This document shows, one piece after another, positions 21,771 through 30,593 of a DNA stretch of 31,451 nucleotides. Below the pieces are notes generated by a model, which was given only the letters and a program-made list of their open reading frames with translations, ran no database searches and was not told where the DNA came from. Source of the DNA: a virus. Numbering within the stretch: the first letter of the stretch is position 1; the number at the start of each line of letters is the position of its first letter. Position numbers and translations under genes: made by a program. The DNA is taken from positions 1 through 31,451 of the IMG/VR virus record IMGVR_UViG_3300025417_000059; one strand, 5' to 3'.

Positions 21771-22700
21771 TTAATCGTCGCTATTTGCTAGATTTCTAAA
21801 ATAATCTAAATCATTATCATCAGAATCATCAACAGAACTTGTAGATACAATAGTTGTGAATTCTTCATTAGATTCAGCAGCAGTTTTTCTATTTTCAAAA
21901 TTTTGTGCTTGAGTTTGTTGAACAGTCGTTCGTGGAGCATCGCCATTCAAGCCAATCACTTTATCTAATCTTTTCTTTAGAACATCATAATCTTTAAATT
22001 CAGAATCATCAATTAGATTTTTCAGAGAATGTTCTTGTTTCCAGATTTTTTCAAGTTGTTCATCATCATCTGATAAAGCTGAAACTGAATCAAACTCAGA
22101 TTTGTCGTAATTTTGATAACCTTCAACTTTACGAATCTTCAATTTGAAATTAGCACCCTTCCATAGATTGAATGGATTGATTGCTTCTTCATCTGGGAAT
22201 GGTGGATTCATTGCTTCAGTAATCTTATCAAAGATTTTCTTTCCGTACTTGAACAACTTAACAGTGCCTTCGTTCTCTGGATGCTTCGGATCAGAAACAA
22301 TATAAACGTTTGAAATATAATTCAATTTACGTTTTTGTTTACGAGCAACATCTTTATTGGCTTCAATTCCAGAATTCCAAAGTGTTGAATTGTATTCACA
22401 AATAGGACAAACTTTGCCTTTTTTATGACCATCAGTAGTTAAACAATTATCGATTAACCAACCACCAGGACCTTGAAAGCCATGAGCAAAGATTTTAACC
22501 CATGGAAGACCATATTCACCATCTTTTTCTGAAGCTGGCAAAAATCGAATGATAGCCATTCCATTGCCTGCTTTATCTACTTCTGGTCTCCAATAGTTTT
22601 GATTTTTTTCTGAGGAATCAGAAGAGATTCCCATTTCTTTCATTTTTTTATTTAGCGAATCGATATCGCCTGAACTTTTTCTTAATTTATCGAATGACAT
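21771..22700 (-). CDS. gp32: Single-stranded DNA-binding protein gp32
   Basis: This 309-residue homologue of T4 gp32 (301 aa) coats single-stranded DNA during replication, recombination and repair. The N-terminal basic region (MSFDKLRKSS) is the cooperativity domain. The core carries the zinc site C86, H92, C98, C101 (NCLTTDGHKKGKVCPIC), as in T4 (H, C, C, C). It also has NYWRPEVDKAGNGMAIIRFL (35-54) and the ssDNA-cleft segment LPWVKIFAHGF. The C-terminus is acidic (VDDSDDNDLDYFRN), the protein-interaction tail. It is the last gene of the gp33-gp59-HAD-gp32 cluster and has its own sigma70 and late promoters upstream. Confidence 0.95.
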   Translation of the reverse strand: MSFDKLRKSSGDIDSLNKKMKEMGISSDSSEKNQNYWRPEVDKAGNGMAIIRFLPASEKDGEYGLPWVKIFAHGFQGPGGWLIDNCLTTDGHKKGKVCPICEYNSTLWNSGIEANKDVARKQKRKLNYISNVYIVSDPKHPENEGTVKLFKYGKKIFDKITEAMNPPFPDEEAINPFNLWKGANFKLKIRKVEGYQNYDKSEFDSVSALSDDDEQLEKIWKQEHSLKNLIDDSEFKDYDVLKKRLDKVIGLNGDAPRTTVQQTQAQNFENRKTAAESNEEFTTIVSTSSVDDSDDNDLDYFRNLANSDD

Positions 22701-22815: not shown

Positions 22816-23308
22816 CATACATTTTTAAGATGGTTAGCGTCGTATTCCAATCTTTATGTTCAATTGCAATACCGCCTGCTTCTCGCCATTGTAAACACAC
22901 TGAAGGTGTGTCATCTATAATGATTCTTGATTCAGTTGAATAATTCTTTTTCTTCGATTTTCCTGGAACAAAAATAGGATTAAAAGTAATTGCATTCTTT
23001 TGTAACCAGATTTGTTTTTGTTTTGCTATATCATCAAACAATTCATCATTGACTGTGCTCGATAATATTTGAGTAGGCACTGAACATTTACGAAGAAAAT
23101 CGACACCTGAAGATGCGCCAGGCATTAAATCAAGTGATTCAAATTGTTTAGTTTTTATAAATTCGAGAAATAAAGGATAGAAATTATTTTTGGCTTCTGC
23201 TTCTTTGGGATGCACACCAAACAATTCATCGTAACGTTTACTGAAATCACAAATAACACCGTCCATATCTAAAAATATAGATTCAATTTTTTGTTTCAAC
23301 ATGTTCAT
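22811..23308 (-). CDS. HAD-family phosphatase, 5'(3')-deoxynucleotidase-like
   Basis: This 165-residue protein has the HAD motifs. Motif I is FLDMDGVICDF (12-22; D14 nucleophile, D16 acid/base), motif II LSSTVND (about 83-89), a motif III lysine in the PGKSKKKN region, and motif IV IIIDDTPSV (paired Asp). The short cap and the layout resemble phage and bacterial 5'(3')-deoxyribonucleotidases, so a role in nucleotide turnover is likely. It is inserted between gp59 and gp32, which are adjacent in T4, and overlaps the gp59 3' end by 26 nt. Two in-frame ATGs (23308 and 23302) are possible starts. Confidence 0.8.
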   Translation of the reverse strand: MNMLKQKIESIFLDMDGVICDFSKRYDELFGVHPKEAEAKNNFYPLFLEFIKTKQFESLDLMPGASSGVDFLRKCSVPTQILSSTVNDELFDDIAKQKQIWLQKNAITFNPIFVPGKSKKKNYSTESRIIIDDTPSVCLQWREAGGIAIEHKDWNTTLTILKMYV

Positions 23309-23897
23309 TTAACCTTTCTTTTATTATTGATTTGAATTTTTGTTTATCATAGTTCACGAATGGTGTGTATTTTTCACATTTCATCTTAGTTGCTGGCCAG
23401 ATAATATCATCTTGAATTTTCTTAGACCACATAGGAAAGAAATTTAAGATGTCATTCATAATGACTAATGTTTCTAGTCTTATGTTTTCTTCCATGGTTT
23501 CTGTGAGAAGATGTGGCCACATGCCATTAACTCTTAACATTTCCTCTGGCTTATATTTGTCAAAAAGATAATTGATATCATTTTCAAAATGATATGTTAG
23601 TGATTGATTGATTTTTTTCCATTTGGTGTATAGTTCTTCACCTTCTGAACTGATCAATTCTCCTATCCAAGAGCTTTTTCCATATACGAAATTGGAAACT
23701 AGATAATTCTTTATTTCGTCGATAGAATATTTTCTAGATAGTTTATAGTAAGAGTATTTTGCTTTGTTTTTTAGAAAACTATCTTGAGTTACATTTGTTT
23801 TGAAATTGTATTTTATTGCATCATACGAAGATGATGTAAAATGTAATTTTAAAGAAGAGTATAGTTTATATACTTCAAATCCAGAGTTTTCTGTCAT
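23283..23897 (-). CDS. gp59: Helicase loader gp59
   Basis: This 204-residue protein is homologous to T4 gp59 (217 aa), which loads the gp41 helicase onto gp32-coated forks. Shared landmarks are FEVYKLYSSLKLHF (8-21, compare KSVYKLYLMIKQHM), YDAIKYNFKTNV (24-35, compare YDVIKYNWCMRV), KYSYYKLSRKY (46-56), VYGKSSWIGEL (72-82, compare DAWIGDI) and FENDINYLFDK (104-114). It lies in the T4 order gp33, gp59, gp32. Its ATG overlaps the gp33 stop (ATGA), suggesting translational coupling. Confidence 0.85.
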   Translation of the reverse strand: MTENSGFEVYKLYSSLKLHFTSSSYDAIKYNFKTNVTQDSFLKNKAKYSYYKLSRKYSIDEIKNYLVSNFVYGKSSWIGELISSEGEELYTKWKKINQSLTYHFENDINYLFDKYKPEEMLRVNGMWPHLLTETMEENIRLETLVIMNDILNFFPMWSKKIQDDIIWPATKMKCEKYTPFVNYDKQKFKSIIKERLNEHVETKN

Positions 23898-24115
23898 ATT
23901 GGAAGTTTTGCTGTTTTTTTCAACAAATTGAGTGATTCCGCTTCTTGTCTAATCTTTGCTTTTAGTGCTGATGTGATTAAAGATGATGCTACTTCTATTT
24001 CTAAGCCATTCACGCTACAGTAATGTATTATAGAATCAATTAAACTAATGCGTTTCTCTAACGATAGTTTTTCTATTTCTGTACTAAAATTCAATACTTC
24101 TGTTCTTGTTGGCAT
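23894..24115 (-). CDS. gp33: Late transcription coactivator gp33
   Basis: This 73-residue helical protein contains DSIIHYCSVNGLEIEVASSL (27-46) and LKAKIRQEAESLNLLKKT (51-68), the pattern of gp33-type late coactivators in marine T4-like phages. T4 gp33 (112 aa) links RNA polymerase and the sliding clamp at TATAAATA promoters. The identity is supported by synteny: gp33 lies directly upstream of gp59 in T4. It is shorter than T4 gp33, and I cannot point to a clear clamp-binding C-terminus. No Shine-Dalgarno is visible, and the leader carries the 37-nt element at 24148-24184. Confidence 0.7.
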   Translation of the reverse strand: MPTRTEVLNFSTEIEKLSLEKRISLIDSIIHYCSVNGLEIEVASSLITSALKAKIRQEAESLNLLKKTAKLPI

Positions 24116-24147
24116 AATATTTCATTGATTCCATTATTTTATAATTA

Positions 24148-24184
24148 CCAACTGATTTGGTTATAAGGACAGTTGGCGAAACCC
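24148..24184 (-). repeat. 37-nt repeated pseudoknot-like RNA element, copy 1
   Basis: Identical over 37 nt to 24482-24518. Read on the minus strand, CCAACTG and CAGTTGG form a 7-bp stem, and GGTT near the 5' end can pair with AACC in the loop, giving an H-type pseudoknot (3-nt and 4-nt crossing loops). This copy begins 12 nt after the stop of the upstream 78-residue gene and lies 33 nt before the gp33 start. Confidence 0.7.
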
Positions 24185-24196
24185 GATACTTATAAA

Positions 24197-24433
24197 TTAT
24201 TTCGTTTCAGAAACAAATTTATAGAGCTTGTTTGCTTTATCTATAATCTGTTCCTCTGTTGGAAAATCTGGCATTTCAGGATATGAAGGTCTACCCTCAC
24301 CTGAAAATAGTCTCATTGTTTCCTGATATTTTTGATTTATTTTATCAGATTTCGAATAGTATTCATCAGTTAATAAATCTTTTGCCATTCCCAAAATTTG
24401 TAAACGTATTTCATATGGATTTAAATTACTCAT
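24197..24433 (-). CDS. Conserved small T4-like phage protein of unknown function
   Basis: This 78-residue protein begins MSNLNPYEIRLQILGMAKDL and ends in a helical EEQIIDKANKLYKFV segment, with a Pro-rich bridge (GEGRPSYPEMPDFPTEEQ). I recognise the pattern 'NPYEIR..L..MAKD.L...YY' from small proteins next to gp33 in marine T4-like phages; no function is known. It has a good ribosome site (CTAAGGAGAAGTAAA). The second 37-nt element lies 49 nt upstream, and its loop TCCTTA is complementary to the TAAGGA of this ribosome site. Confidence 0.7.
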   Translation of the reverse strand: MSNLNPYEIRLQILGMAKDLLTDEYYSKSDKINQKYQETMRLFSGEGRPSYPEMPDFPTEEQIIDKANKLYKFVSETK

Positions 24434-24481
24434 TTTACTTCTCCTTAGTGTATGTAACTACTGTGTGTAACTGCTAATTAG

Positions 24482-24518
24482 CCAACTGATTTGGTTATAA
24501 GGACAGTTGGCGAAACCC
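24482..24518 (-). repeat. 37-nt repeated pseudoknot-like RNA element, copy 2
   Basis: Identical to 24148-24184. This copy starts 8 nt after the stop codon of the tmRNA tag frame (24527-24529) and lies 49 nt before the ATG at 24433. The loop TCCTTATAACC contains TCCTTA, which matches the anti-Shine-Dalgarno end of 16S rRNA and could pair with TAAGGA at the next gene's ribosome site. Confidence 0.7.
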
Positions 24519-24657
24519 CACTGAGATTAAGCCGCTAGGCGATTATCTACAGAAAATGCGTTATCATTTGCATTTATTGGTTTTTTAGTTTTTACGACTA
24601 TCTATGTCGAGTTGCCGTCTCCACTAGCTCAAGCTGTCGAATGCTGAGTACACCCCC
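24519..24657 (-). ncRNA. ssrA: Permuted tmRNA, coding piece (tag reading frame)
   Basis: The 5' end GGGGGTG (24657-24651) pairs with CGCCTCC of the acceptor piece to form a 7-bp alanine-type acceptor stem with the G3-U70 identity pair. It is followed by CATTCGACAGC, the conserved tmRNA D-region motif (GGATTCGAC in E. coli), ATAGTCGTAAAAAC, and a tag frame GCA AAT GAT AAC ... GCG GCT TAA (24571-24527) encoding ANDNAFSVDNRLAA. ANDN starts and AA ends are typical of alphaproteobacterial tags. tmRNA frees stalled ribosomes and adds the degradation tag. The 3' end is approximate; the resume codon is inferred from tag similarity. Confidence 0.85.
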
Positions 24658-24765
24658 ATCAGAAAGAACTCTCTTGTCATTCATAATATATGCCCATCTT
24701 AGACATGGCCGTTTGCATACATTACTAATTCCACTAGTTTACGGATCACTAGGGAAAGTTCTTTC
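24658..24765 (-). other. Intervening segment of the permuted pre-tmRNA
   Basis: These 108 nt join the CCA end of the acceptor piece to the 5' G of the coding piece. GAAAGAACT directly after CCA (24765-24757 on the minus strand) is complementary to AGTTCTTTC (24670-24662) shortly before the coding piece, a 9-bp stem that continues the acceptor helix. Removal of the segment would give a two-piece tmRNA, as known in alphaproteobacteria. Confidence 0.75.
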
Positions 24766-24830
24766 TGGTGGAGGCGAGGGGATTTGCACCCCTGTCCAAC
24801 CTGCCTTCATTTTGAAGGGATTACAACCAT
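24766..24830 (-). ncRNA. ssrA: Permuted tmRNA, acceptor piece with T arm and encoded CCA
   Basis: On the minus strand the 3' end reads GGAC AGGGG TGCAAAT CCCCT CGCCTCC A CCA. This is the tmRNA GGAC, a 5-bp T stem with a 7-nt loop, the 3' strand of the acceptor stem, the discriminator A and a genome-encoded CCA (24766-24768). A short hairpin CCTTCA/TGAAGG lies just upstream (24804-24818). The gene order acceptor piece then coding piece is the circularly permuted form. The 5' boundary near 24830 is a guess. Confidence 0.85.
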
Positions 24831-24876
24831 ATTGAAATACACTAATAACTTGCGTTTGGTTGATACTCATGGAAGC

Positions 24877-24940
24877 GATCCAGTAGTAGCAAGTACGGTT
24901 ATTATCATGTCCTAACAGTTTCGAATCTGTTATCTGGATC
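24877..24940. repeat. Nested inverted repeat, tRNA-like but not a tRNA
   Basis: GATCCAG (24877-24883) and CTGGATC (24934-24940) enclose an inner TAACAG/CTGTTA stem with the loop TTTCGAAT and a small GTA/TAC stem. On the plus strand this resembles an acceptor stem, D arm and T arm. The T loop has 8 nt, no 5-bp anticodon stem exists and the total is only 64 nt. It lies in the leader of the tmRNA transcript. Function unknown. Confidence 0.4.
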
Positions 24941-24961
24941 TATTAATGTATTTCGATATGA

Positions 24962-25093
24962 TTATTGTACAGCGTGTGTCTTTTTATGTTTCAAAGACTT
25001 CTTCAGTACTTTCATCCAAAACTTTCTTTCTCTTTCGGCATCATGTTCAACACAAGCTTTATAGAGTTTTTTCATTAGTTTCTTCATCTTCAT
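24962..25093 (-). CDS. Small basic ORF in the leader upstream of the tmRNA
   Basis: This 43-codon frame (MKMKKLMKKLYKACVEHDAE, then ERERKFWMKV) is Lys-rich and helical. The first ATG directly follows the -10 box of a strong promoter, so a transcript starting about 7 nt downstream would begin at the second in-frame ATG (25087) and be leaderless for this ORF. It is not recognised, and a plain tmRNA leader is the alternative. Codon use (AAA, GAA) matches the phage. Confidence 0.4.
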   Translation of the reverse strand: MKMKKLMKKLYKACVEHDAERERKFWMKVLKKSLKHKKTHAVQ

Positions 25094-25123
25094 ATTATAC
25101 TCTCTTTATTTATCAATTGTCAA
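25094..25123 (-). promoter_or_regulatory. Strong sigma70 promoter ahead of the tmRNA / gp33 / gp59 cluster
   Basis: Consensus TTGACA (25118-25123) and consensus TATAAT (25094-25099) on the minus strand are 18 bp apart. No terminator is seen downstream, so the transcript should cover the small ORF, the permuted tmRNA, the 78-residue protein, gp33 and gp59. Early host-polymerase transcription is expected. Confidence 0.8.
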
Positions 25124-25253
25124 CTGGCAATACGCTCTGGATATCGATAGGCGAACGTTCCTCTACTACAGCATAGTCTTTGTTGTCTGCATTAAACAAT
25201 AGTTTAACATCATTTTGTCTGTATTTCTCGTATATAATTTTCAATAAAATCAT
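25113..25253 (-). CDS. Small ORF overlapping the nuclease 3' end
   Basis: This 46-codon frame (MILLKIIYEKYRQNDVKLLF, then NADNKDYAVVEERSPIDIQS) starts at an ATG overlapping the nuclease stop region and ends inside the spacer of the promoter at 25094-25123. Composition and codon choice look like real phage coding sequence, with acidic and hydrophobic residues in helical order. It lacks a clear ribosome site, so coupling to the nuclease would be needed. It was not recognised. Confidence 0.4.
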   Translation of the reverse strand: MILLKIIYEKYRQNDVKLLFNADNKDYAVVEERSPIDIQSVLPVDN

Positions 25254-25872
25254 TCAGCGAGATTTCTTCTTCGAATTTTTTAGATTCTACAGTATTATCT
25301 ACGCAAGAGATATTTCCCATATTCTCGCCTTCGATAATGACAAATTTACACACGTATGATGGTACTGGTATACCATTTATATTAGTATCATTATCATAAA
25401 AAGGTATATTCACAACATACATTGATTTTTGAGAATTTTTTAGTTTTTTTCTAGTCTCTTCCTCGATATTTTTCCAGACAACTCTATTCATATTTGGTAT
25501 TTCTGGAACCATATTAGTCATCAAAAATGTTTCATGCATTTCTTTATCATTAGATGCATCCGCCGCGGGGGCTAAATGTCCACGATCAAAACCAGTATTA
25601 GAATAATCAGAAGTGTTTGGGTGTTTACCGATTCTATCGTCTGAATGAAAATCATTAGTTCTTTTAACTGAACCGACCGCACCGTGTTTCAAGTGTTCTG
25701 AAACTAAAATAACTCTATTATGATTTTTATCAAATAAAGAAACATAGAATGAATTACACAATTCTACAGTATTTTTTACCTCTATCGGTTTTGAATCTGG
25801 ATACAGATTTACACACTCAGAAGCTATTACTGAATTACATACAAATAATAACGCTAATAACATTTTTTTCAT
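25210..25872 (-). CDS. Secreted DNA/RNA non-specific endonuclease (NUC1/EndA family)
   Basis: The protein has 220 residues from the ATG at 25872, chosen because it follows a TAGGAC ribosome site and begins directly with a signal peptide (MKKMLLALLFVCNSVIASEC). An upstream ATG at 25905 would add 11 residues in front of it. The core shows the family motif FDRGHLAPAAD (DRGH, with the catalytic His) and a TFLMTNMVPEIPNMN stretch containing the metal-binding Asn. Such enzymes cut DNA and RNA without sequence preference and need Mg2+. The Ser-Glu-Cys after the hydrophobic core suggests export to the periplasm, possibly with disulphides. It overlaps the GIY-YIG gene only if the upstream start is used. 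Confidence 0.85.
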   Translation of the reverse strand: MKKMLLALLFVCNSVIASECVNLYPDSKPIEVKNTVELCNSFYVSLFDKNHNRVILVSEHLKHGAVGSVKRTNDFHSDDRIGKHPNTSDYSNTGFDRGHLAPAADASNDKEMHETFLMTNMVPEIPNMNRVVWKNIEEETRKKLKNSQKSMYVVNIPFYDNDTNINGIPVPSYVCKFVIIEGENMGNISCVDNTVESKKFEEEISLNDFIENYIREIQTK

Positions 25873-25897
25873 TTTTATAGTCCTATTTTTCAAATTA

Positions 25898-26596
25898 CTA
25901 AACATTTATTTTTAATTTACAATTATTATTATGCCAACGTGCTATAACTCTAGCAAAATTTTCATAATTACAATGAATGCATTTTATTTTTGGCAGATTT
26001 AAAGATTTTTCACTCATTCTTTTTTTAGTTTCGTCGCTATGAGAACCACCAGAAAACGATGGACATTTTCTTAGACCTTCAGCGTATTCTTGTTTCCGTC
26101 TCCATGATAATTTTTTTCTACCTTCTTCTGAAAATTTTAATCCAACTCTAGCATCTGCCATATTTTTTTTAGCTTCATCTGATAGTTTCATACCTTTAAT
26201 TGGACTAGGTTTTCCTTTATGTGCATCCGACATTTTTTTTCTAACTTCTGGTCGTTTAGATGGATTATTAATCCCTTTAAATCTAATTGATCTTTTAATT
26301 TTTTCTTTTTCTGTGTGTGCTGGATTCAATTTTCCTGAAGAAAAACCACAAGAACTTAAATTGAAATTCATGCAATTTTCTTTACCAACATTTTCTTGTA
26401 AAAATAATTGCTCTTTCTCTTTTAATTCCGACTCTTCACAGAATAATAATATTTCCCTAGTAAGTTCATCTTTGTTTTTTAAAGAACGTATCCATTTGCC
26501 AGAACCAAAATAATAATCATCTAATTTTTTTGTCGAATGTCTACCTATATAATATTTGCCGCTTTTAGATGTTGTTTTGTAAATAAAGTGATACAT
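25898..26596 (-). CDS. GIY-YIG homing endonuclease with NUMOD3-like repeats
   Basis: This 232-residue protein is a free-standing homing endonuclease of the Seg/I-TevI type. The catalytic domain has FIYKTTS (4-10, in place of GIY), KYYIGRHS (14-21, with R19 as the catalytic Arg), YFGSGKWI (29-36) and a Glu-rich EKEQLFLQEN (60-69) that carries the catalytic acid. About five NUMOD3-like DNA-binding repeats follow (NPSKRPEVRKKMSDAHKGK, GMKLSDEAKKNMADAR, LKFSEEGRKK and similar). A C-terminal CIHC...H...C cluster may bind zinc. It lies between PhoH and the secreted nuclease. The ATG follows AGGA, which a hairpin may hide (see 26606-26625). Confidence 0.88.
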   Translation of the reverse strand: MYHFIYKTTSKSGKYYIGRHSTKKLDDYYFGSGKWIRSLKNKDELTREILLFCEESELKEKEQLFLQENVGKENCMNFNLSSCGFSSGKLNPAHTEKEKIKRSIRFKGINNPSKRPEVRKKMSDAHKGKPSPIKGMKLSDEAKKNMADARVGLKFSEEGRKKLSWRRKQEYAEGLRKCPSFSGGSHSDETKKRMSEKSLNLPKIKCIHCNYENFARVIARWHNNNCKLKINV

Positions 26597-29153: not shown

Positions 29154-30593
29154 TCAGGTCCATACACGGAAATTTTCGAAAGAGCAAGGGTTTCTAGCAT
29201 CGTATTCACGATAAAATAGAGAATTCTTGTCTTCATTTGGTCTCCAATCTGTCATTTCAAAAGGAATCGGACCCAGATAAGGATCAGCATATTTTAAAAC
29301 ATAATCAAATGGGATTTGTTCGGGTTCAATATATCCTAGTCTTGGATTCTGAATTGCCCACATAATAGCACCTAGCATAGATGCTACGACTTGAACTGAT
29401 GTAGCATTTTCGCCTGGAATTAATTTTCTAGCAGCTTCGATTTCTAGTTGAGAACCGTGCCACATTGCGAAATCATCACCAATTAGAAGAACACCGAGTT
29501 CGTCCATTCCAGAAACAACTTCGTCTTTAGCAATACGTGTTTTAGATTGTAAATCGAGTTCACGGCCACGCATTTCGTGTACAGATGCAATAGCAGCATC
29601 AGTAGGTTGATAAACGTAGTAAACTGATGGTCTAAATGAACCGTCTTTTGTTGTGAAATACTCACTGATAGTAATTGCTTCACTGTGCTGAACACAGAAA
29701 CCGTTATAACTACCGCCGACTGGAACCCATGATTTCATCAATACCGATAATCCAGGTTGCTCTAGATATGCTGCGTTTCCTTGTGATCTACCGCCTTCTG
29801 GATGTTTGTTTTCGTGTGTTCCCCAACCCATTTCAGCAGGAGCACGACCTTCAGCCCAGAAACCTTCACATGACCAGCTATTAACAAATTCGTTGACTTC
29901 CTTTGGTTTATCGATAATCTGTGTATCACGTTCTGCAATATGAACAACTCTAACTTTTAGAGATTTCATTAGTTGCGCCCAACCTTGTTGATCTTGAGGT
30001 GCTTCGACTTTTTTACCGTTCTTTTTAGCTAACTCTAGTAATGCACGTTTAGTCAAATGAGTTACTAAGCCTGGATTAGCACCGTGTGTAGCTACACAAG
30101 TAGCCGCATTTGGATACTTTTTAGCAAATTCTCTGATTTCTTTATGTGTTGCATACAGTGTACGATCAGCTAAATTCTTGATTTTCTCGTCTGAATGATG
30201 TTCCCAACGTTCTAGTGATGTGTTGATATACATTACGTTGTGTTGAAAACACCATTTCATAATCGATTGTGCATCGATATTTAACGAAACGTCAATTAAA
30301 AAACCACCATCTTCTAGATACTTTGATAGTGTAGAATCTAGATTTTTTGCAACAATTTGTTTTCTTACGTACTGTACGCCGTTGTTTTTATTACGTTGTT
30401 TGAAAAGTTTTGAATGATCGTCTTTTTCAAGTACCGTAATATTTTTTGGATTTGAACTGATGTGCTTTAAAATGATAGGAAGAATTGCTTGTCCTACGCT
30501 ACCATATCCAATTATAAGAATTTTTTTGTCAAAATCGACAAATCTCTCTCTAGGAGTTTCGATAAATTCTCTAAAAGTAATTATAGATGACAT
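29154..30593 (-). CDS. hss: Homospermidine synthase (auxiliary metabolic gene)
   Basis: This 479-residue protein matches bacterial homospermidine synthase, which makes the polyamine homospermidine from putrescine in an NAD-dependent reaction. The Rossmann start is KKILIIGYGSVGQAILPII (23-41; GYGSVG, G29, G31, G34). VSLNIDAQSIMKWC (about 102-115), YINTSLERWEHHSDEK (about 122-137), ATHGANPGLVTHLTKRALL (about 168-186) and GRAPAEMGWGTHE (about 249-261) are hallmark blocks of the family. The length equals that of bacterial enzymes (about 477 aa), with no frame breaks. A saccharopine-dehydrogenase relative is the alternative, but the ANPGLV and AEMGWGTHE blocks favour Hss. A CATAAATA late-like element lies 38 nt upstream. 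Confidence 0.9.
   Translation of the reverse strand: MSSIITFREFIETPRERFVDFDKKILIIGYGSVGQAILPIILKHISSNPKNITVLEKDDHSKLFKQRNKNNGVQYVRKQIVAKNLDSTLSKYLEDGGFLIDVSLNIDAQSIMKWCFQHNVMYINTSLERWEHHSDEKIKNLADRTLYATHKEIREFAKKYPNAATCVATHGANPGLVTHLTKRALLELAKKNGKKVEAPQDQQGWAQLMKSLKVRVVHIAERDTQIIDKPKEVNEFVNSWSCEGFWAEGRAPAEMGWGTHENKHPEGGRSQGNAAYLEQPGLSVLMKSWVPVGGSYNGFCVQHSEAITISEYFTTKDGSFRPSVYYVYQPTDAAIASVHEMRGRELDLQSKTRIAKDEVVSGMDELGVLLIGDDFAMWHGSQLEIEAARKLIPGENATSVQVVASMLGAIMWAIQNPRLGYIEPEQIPFDYVLKYADPYLGPIPFEMTDWRPNEDKNSLFYREYDARNPCSFENFRVWT

Follow-up and report, generated by a model that had tools for sequence, protein, structure and literature searches.

The 31,451 nt of virus record IMGVR_UViG_3300025417_000059 analysed here (the window) hold on the minus strand an element that a preliminary description had read as a phage-borne, circularly permuted tmRNA gene. 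The locus raises the questions of whether this element is a tmRNA gene at all, whether it is maintained, and what such an RNA would do during infection.

Identification of the gene and its carrier

The element, at approximately 24828-24481, is a circularly permuted (two-piece) tmRNA gene carried by a phage. Rfam model RF04321 (tmRNA_permuted) matches over its full length (1-213) with 111.3 bits against a cut-off of 47 (E 3.6e-21), and RF01850 (beta_tmRNA) with 88.3 bits against a cut-off of 84 (E 1.4e-25). ARAGORN independently places a permuted tmRNA at 24436-24858 with the tag ANDNAFSVDNRLAA. These results bear out the identity first proposed. The alphaproteobacterial model had been suggested for the search; significant tmRNA matches were indeed obtained (RF04321, RF01850), but none to the alpha model (RF01849) was reported for the window. 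The chance that a fortuitous resemblance, or an ordinary tRNA or other RNA structure, has been taken for a tmRNA is negligible, being refuted by the RF04321 E-value together with the independent ARAGORN detection. The interval of 24519-24830 given previously was correct in location but too narrow, as the ARAGORN and Rfam matches run somewhat beyond it, the latter extending the gene upstream to 24828 or 24906 and downstream to 24468.

The window is a fragment of a T4-like (Kyanoviridae-like) phage. It encodes gp59, gp32, a baseplate hub protein, tail-type proteins, a PhoH-like protein and likely gp33, in agreement with the phage origin previously assigned, and its gp32 is 49-58% identical to gp32 of Kyanoviridae cyanophages. 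Permuted tmRNAs of marine and aquatic phages have already been published, so the window adds one more case and is less novel than the preliminary description implied.

Architecture of the RNA

On the minus strand the acceptor piece lies upstream, followed by the intervening segment and then by the coding piece (Table 1). The acceptor-piece elements from GGAC to CCA, the intervening segment (exactly 24765-24658) and the coding-piece elements from GGGGGTG at 24657 to the TAA codon all lie where they had first been described, and the two pieces form the expected 7-bp acceptor stem with its G3-U70 pair. The tag frame of the window has an alanine resume codon, a stop and an alanine-rich end, and in the alignment comparable hairpins follow the tag in relatives. 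For the mRNA domain the analysis covered the helices included in the models and this 3' hairpin. The T loop in the T arm of the window (within 24793-24777) is of the TGCRAAT type, as in many phage tmRNAs; relative to TTCRANT this type corresponds to a change of U55 to G.

Table 1. Positions of the tmRNA parts and neighbouring features in the window.
Feature	Position	Strand	Remarks
gp32 single-strand DNA binding protein	21771-22700	-	PHROG 224
gp59 helicase loader	23283-23897	-	Pfam T4_Gp59_N/C, PHROG 269; 39/39 loci
Likely gp33 (late-transcription accessory protein)	23894-24115	-	Downstream neighbour; position annotated gp33 in Mosig
3' hairpin of coding piece	24481-24511	-	GCCAACTG...CAGTTGGC, loop TCCTTATAACCAAAT; from alignment, within RF01850 match
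Coding piece up to stop	24527-24657	-	GGGGGTG (acceptor 5' strand, 24657-24651), CATTCGAC, CAACT (24614-24610), tag ORF; sequence, ARAGORN, Rfam
Tag reading frame	24527-24571	-	GCA...GCT TAA = ANDNAFSVDNRLAA*, 14 aa, ends LAA; codons GCA...GCT 24571-24530, stop TAA 24529-24527
Intervening segment	24658-24765	-	108 nt, predicted removed
Intervening terminal helix	24765-24754 with 24673-24662	-	GAAAGAACTTTC with GAGAGTTCTTTC, then TGAT directly before coding piece
Acceptor piece	24766-24828	-	GGTTG, GGAC, T arm AGGGG-TGCAAAT-CCCCT, CGCCTCC (acceptor 3' strand), A73, CCA ending 24766; sequence, ARAGORN, Rfam; mature 5' end uncertain
GGTTG, 5' strand of long helix	24828-24824	-	In acceptor piece; pairs with CAACT 24614-24610
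Candidate micro-ORF	24962-25093	-	About 43 aa, very basic (MKMKKLMKKLYKACVEHDAERERKFWMKVLKKSLKHKKTHAVQ); between promoter and tmRNA
Perfect sigma-70 type promoter	25094-25123	-	TTGACA-18-TATAAT; sole 12/12 match in window
DNA/RNA non-specific endonuclease	25210-25905	-	PF01223; likely signal peptide; upstream of tmRNA
NUMOD3 protein, probably homing endonuclease	25898-26596	-	Between phoH and the nuclease adjoining the tmRNA
Saccharopine-dehydrogenase-fold protein	29154-30593	-	Resembles homospermidine synthase (Pfam PF16653, PF03435); no PHROG match

The intervening segment contains the stem described previously, although its length had been put at 9 bp; the helix has 12 pairs with G-U allowed and 14 in the minimum free energy (MFE) fold, and it abuts the acceptor stem. 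The folding energy of the region is -52.3 kcal/mol (z -6.7), none of 200 shuffles being equally stable, and mononucleotide shuffling of the intervening segment gave a helix of equal length in 2 of 5000 cases. A helix of at least 7 pairs flush with the acceptor stem is found in 36/39 phage genes and 22/27 beta genes, and in 4 of 43 further bacterial rows (mostly alpha, some mis-parsed); the comparison covered these three sets. GAT directly precedes G1 in 35 of the 39 phage genes, and TGA plus any base does so in 24 of the 27 beta genes. A flush precursor helix of 7-14 bp with a (T)GAT motif, shared by phage and beta genes and rare in the alpha genes sampled, is possibly a new feature.

Genomic context and promoter

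Loci were compared in 39 phages, namely 36 IMG/VR loci together with L082, Melnitz and Mosig. The 36 are those that carry a permuted tmRNA among 80 IMG/VR phage loci found by gp32 and searched with RF04321; where at least 4.3 kb of sequence lies upstream of gp32, a permuted tmRNA is present in 31 of 35. In all 39 loci the gene shares its strand with gp59 and gp32 and lies upstream of both. A gp33 match was obtained in 38, downstream of the tmRNA in 37 and with a 9-nt overlap in one, and phoH is upstream of the tmRNA in all eight loci where it was matched. Far from being confined to a few isolates, the permuted tmRNA is an established gene under selection, found at a single locus across a wide range of T4-like phages from aquatic habitats. 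Four to eight relatives with sufficient upstream sequence have no tmRNA gene, so the group does not depend on it. Among related cyanophages, P-SSM2, S-PM2 and DSL-LC03 were tested; the locus is present in them and the tmRNA absent.

The sigma-70 type promoter of the window has counterparts elsewhere: a match of at least 10/12 lies within 350 nt upstream of 30 of the 39 phage tmRNA genes, against a background of 0.27 such matches per 400 nt in the rest of that strand. This suggests that the tmRNA is transcribed by unmodified host polymerase, in which case transcription would probably be early. The micro-ORF between promoter and tmRNA was suspected of being conserved and was set aside, similar peptides being found only in L061, L082 and L083.

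Of the other neighbours, the non-specific endonuclease has a 69% identical counterpart in L082. The homospermidine-synthase-like protein is possibly the product of a polyamine auxiliary gene. Host assignment through it was rejected, as the bacterial proteins that match it best share 39-45% identity with it and are scattered over many phyla; a 52% match lies on a contig (L092) whose neighbouring ORFs look phage-like, so no host was deduced from it.

Covariation and selection

The structure assessed for covariation is the known tmRNA fold and was not derived from these sequences. Acceptor-stem pairing is complete (7/7) in each of the 39 phage genes parsed, with G3.U70 and the discriminator A in every case; A73-CCA never varies. 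Pairs 4-69, 5-68 and 6-67 switch type among these genes by compensatory changes. Because this parse had located the ends by pairing, it was repeated with pairing-blind anchors. Cognate acceptor stems then paired at 7/7 positions in 31 of 36 cases, compared with 26% of non-cognate combinations; the remaining five look mis-anchored. In a set of 25 distinct phage sequences, from which two mis-anchored rows had been removed and in which that of Mosig had been corrected manually, all 300 cells of the T arm and acceptor stem are paired, with double changes in 8 of the 12 pairs. This set has a covariation score of 0.454, compared with 0.116 +/- 0.019 for shuffled alignments and at most 0.105 when slid. 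Full pairing with compensatory changes, combined with the invariant G3.U70 and A73-CCA, indicates that the gene is maintained by selection.

Relationship to bacterial tmRNAs

Beta permuted tmRNAs (RF01850) resemble that of the window in the flush precursor helix, in the TGAN before G1 and in grouping with phages in trees. They differ in the tag and in the T loop (TTCRANT against TGCAAAT), their intervening segments are mostly of 29-76 nt compared with 108 nt, and the best identity of the window to any tree row is approximately 64-66%. Alpha permuted tmRNAs (RF01849) share the permutation and G3.U70, but have a GGCRGTA T loop (mostly GGCGGTA in the genes sampled) and short intervening segments that mostly lack a long flush helix.

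Trees built on approximately 185 columns place the phage and beta sequences together and the alpha sequences apart as a separate group (99/99). With all rows included, beta is nested within the phage sequences; with long branches removed, the phages form one side (89/74) and beta does not. An AU test does not reject the phages as one side (p 0.42), and the position of the window relative to beta shifts with the rows included. The trees and the AU test are therefore ambiguous, and no direction of transfer is claimed. It is conceivable, if rather doubtful, that T4-like phages and beta-proteobacteria share one permuted tmRNA lineage, recognisable by the flush helix of 7-14 bp and a (T)GA motif ahead of G1, beta having obtained its copy from a phage or the phages theirs from beta hosts. 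If so, phages would be vehicles spreading permuted tmRNA between bacterial classes. A passage in PMC3978253 cites literature in which two-piece tmRNA arose independently in the beta lineage; the precursor architecture shared by phage and beta genes reopens that question in a testable form.

Nearly all the Gammaproteobacteria sampled have one-piece tmRNA, and only 4 of 150 Burkholderiales score above the beta cut-off. Two genomes of a Burkholderiales family (L317 and L316) have low-scoring permuted tmRNAs with long intervening segments and the odd tags ANDAHFKVAAHA and ANDEMFDVRLAA. The ORFs surrounding that of L317 resemble translated tRNAs, so it may sit in a phage-like tRNA array.

Comparison with known phage tmRNAs

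Like that of the window, the tmRNAs of the mycobacteriophage Bxz1 group, Bacillus phage G and Streptomyces phages are phage-carried (PMC4131195). They belong to phages unrelated to the window phage and are one-piece forms, not known to be permuted. Two-piece tmRNAs are reported from Melnitz, Mosig and other marine phages, and 53 out of 133 unique tmRNA structures from phages were called two-piece (PMC9004378); the tmRNA database holds 79 bacteriophage sequences (PMC11915505). In Melnitz (a Methylophilales phage, MZ577097; host OM43) and Mosig (SAR11) the permuted tmRNA lies between a nuclease and gp33/gp59/gp32, as in the window. RF04321 gives 113, 94 and 91 bits for Melnitz, Mosig and HTVC008M (Pelagibacter phages, Kyanoviridae). 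All three share with the window G3.U70 and a helix in the intervening segment, but have different tags (ANDNYVPVDYALAA, GEDNFALAA). A blastn search of the window tmRNA against phage records gave no match, the sequence being too diverged. The glutamine riboswitch reported to accompany the tmRNA in Melnitz and Mosig (PMC9004378) is absent from the window, where only the tmRNA matches Rfam in 24100-25300 at E <= 1.

Xanthomonas phage Rb1 (L180; PQ569993, 16300-16605) has an unannotated permuted tmRNA of 103 bits with the tag ANDDNFRPALRLAA. A further record (L080, G1045:6177-6413) contains a second, weaker permuted-tmRNA match of 34.8 bits beside the main one, possibly a tandem remnant.

Proposed function

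We consider it likely that this is a functional permuted tmRNA gene of a T4-like phage, acting in trans-translation during infection with host factors. A single precursor would be transcribed, probably early, from the host-type sigma-70 promoter, and its intervening segment would form a helix that stacks onto the acceptor stem. Cleavage in front of G1 of the coding piece would be the work of host RNase P, while an acceptor piece ending in CCA would result from host 3' processing; pairing in the acceptor stem and in the long helix would keep the two pieces together. Host AlaRS would charge the RNA with alanine through G3.U70 and A73, and the charged RNA, with host SmpB and EF-Tu, would rescue stalled ribosomes during infection. 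Addition of ANDNAFSVDNRLAA to the product would lead to its removal by host ClpXP-type proteases. In this scheme RNase P and 3' processing, alanylation, delivery by SmpB and EF-Tu and tag-directed proteolysis are taken from established tmRNA biology. The sequences show the gene, its permutation, the covariation, the promoter match and the conserved locus, whereas we infer processing, charging, rescue, tagging and a benefit to the phage. A search of 14 related contigs, mostly incomplete and up to 170 kb long, revealed no SmpB, so the phage presumably uses that of the host. Ribosome rescue provided by the phage itself, as first suggested, is the best inference, with the change that the phage seems to contribute the RNA only; rescue would then be split, with the RNA from the phage and SmpB from the host.

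Fragments of ssrA do occur in phages as integration scars, as discussed in PMC9004378, and the gene might accordingly be a pseudogene or a non-functional copy that was recently acquired from a host. This is very improbable. The gene is complete, no integrase is seen in the ORF list of the window, and the evolution of both stems by compensation already contradicts such an origin; covariation, the constant genome position across 39 phage genes and the promoter together argue for a maintained gene and not a captured fragment.

A maintained RNA might instead act against the host, as a decoy or inhibitor that mainly titrates SmpB or occupies stalled ribosomes and so blocks host trans-translation. 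Mycobacteriophage DS6A has a tmRNA reduced to the tRNA-like domain, for which such a role has been proposed, and a molecule of that kind inhibits tmRNA (PMC4131195, PMC11915505); the lack of SmpB among the relatives examined would also fit. However, relatives keep the tag ORF with its stop and alanine-rich C-terminus, for which a decoy would have no need, and the charging identity pair is invariant. The retained tag frame makes an inhibitor of the DS6A type less likely, and we regard it as quite improbable here. Alternatively, rescue could be intact and the tag could alter the fate of its products, with host proteins recycled faster or phage proteins spared. Selective tagging of host proteins has been suggested for Melnitz (PMC9004378), the 14-aa tag of the window is unlike the alpha and beta tags sampled, and a degenerate scan of genome contigs found no bacterium with the same tag. 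Against this, many phages of the group have ordinary ANDxxxALAA tags and the window tag ends in LAA, so that the degron appears to be kept; such retargeting seems unlikely, and ordinary trans-translation with host factors remains the preferred reading.

Possible separate evolution of the two pieces

Permuted tmRNAs missed by ARAGORN were found with RF04321 (77.5 bits) at L082:4251-4597 and L083:5799-6145. The last 21 bases of the window tag are identical in both, and the tag end and 3' tail are nearly base-identical to those of the window, whereas the tRNA domain is very different. The similar tail beside a dissimilar tRNA domain suggests recombination between the pieces, or unequal change of them.
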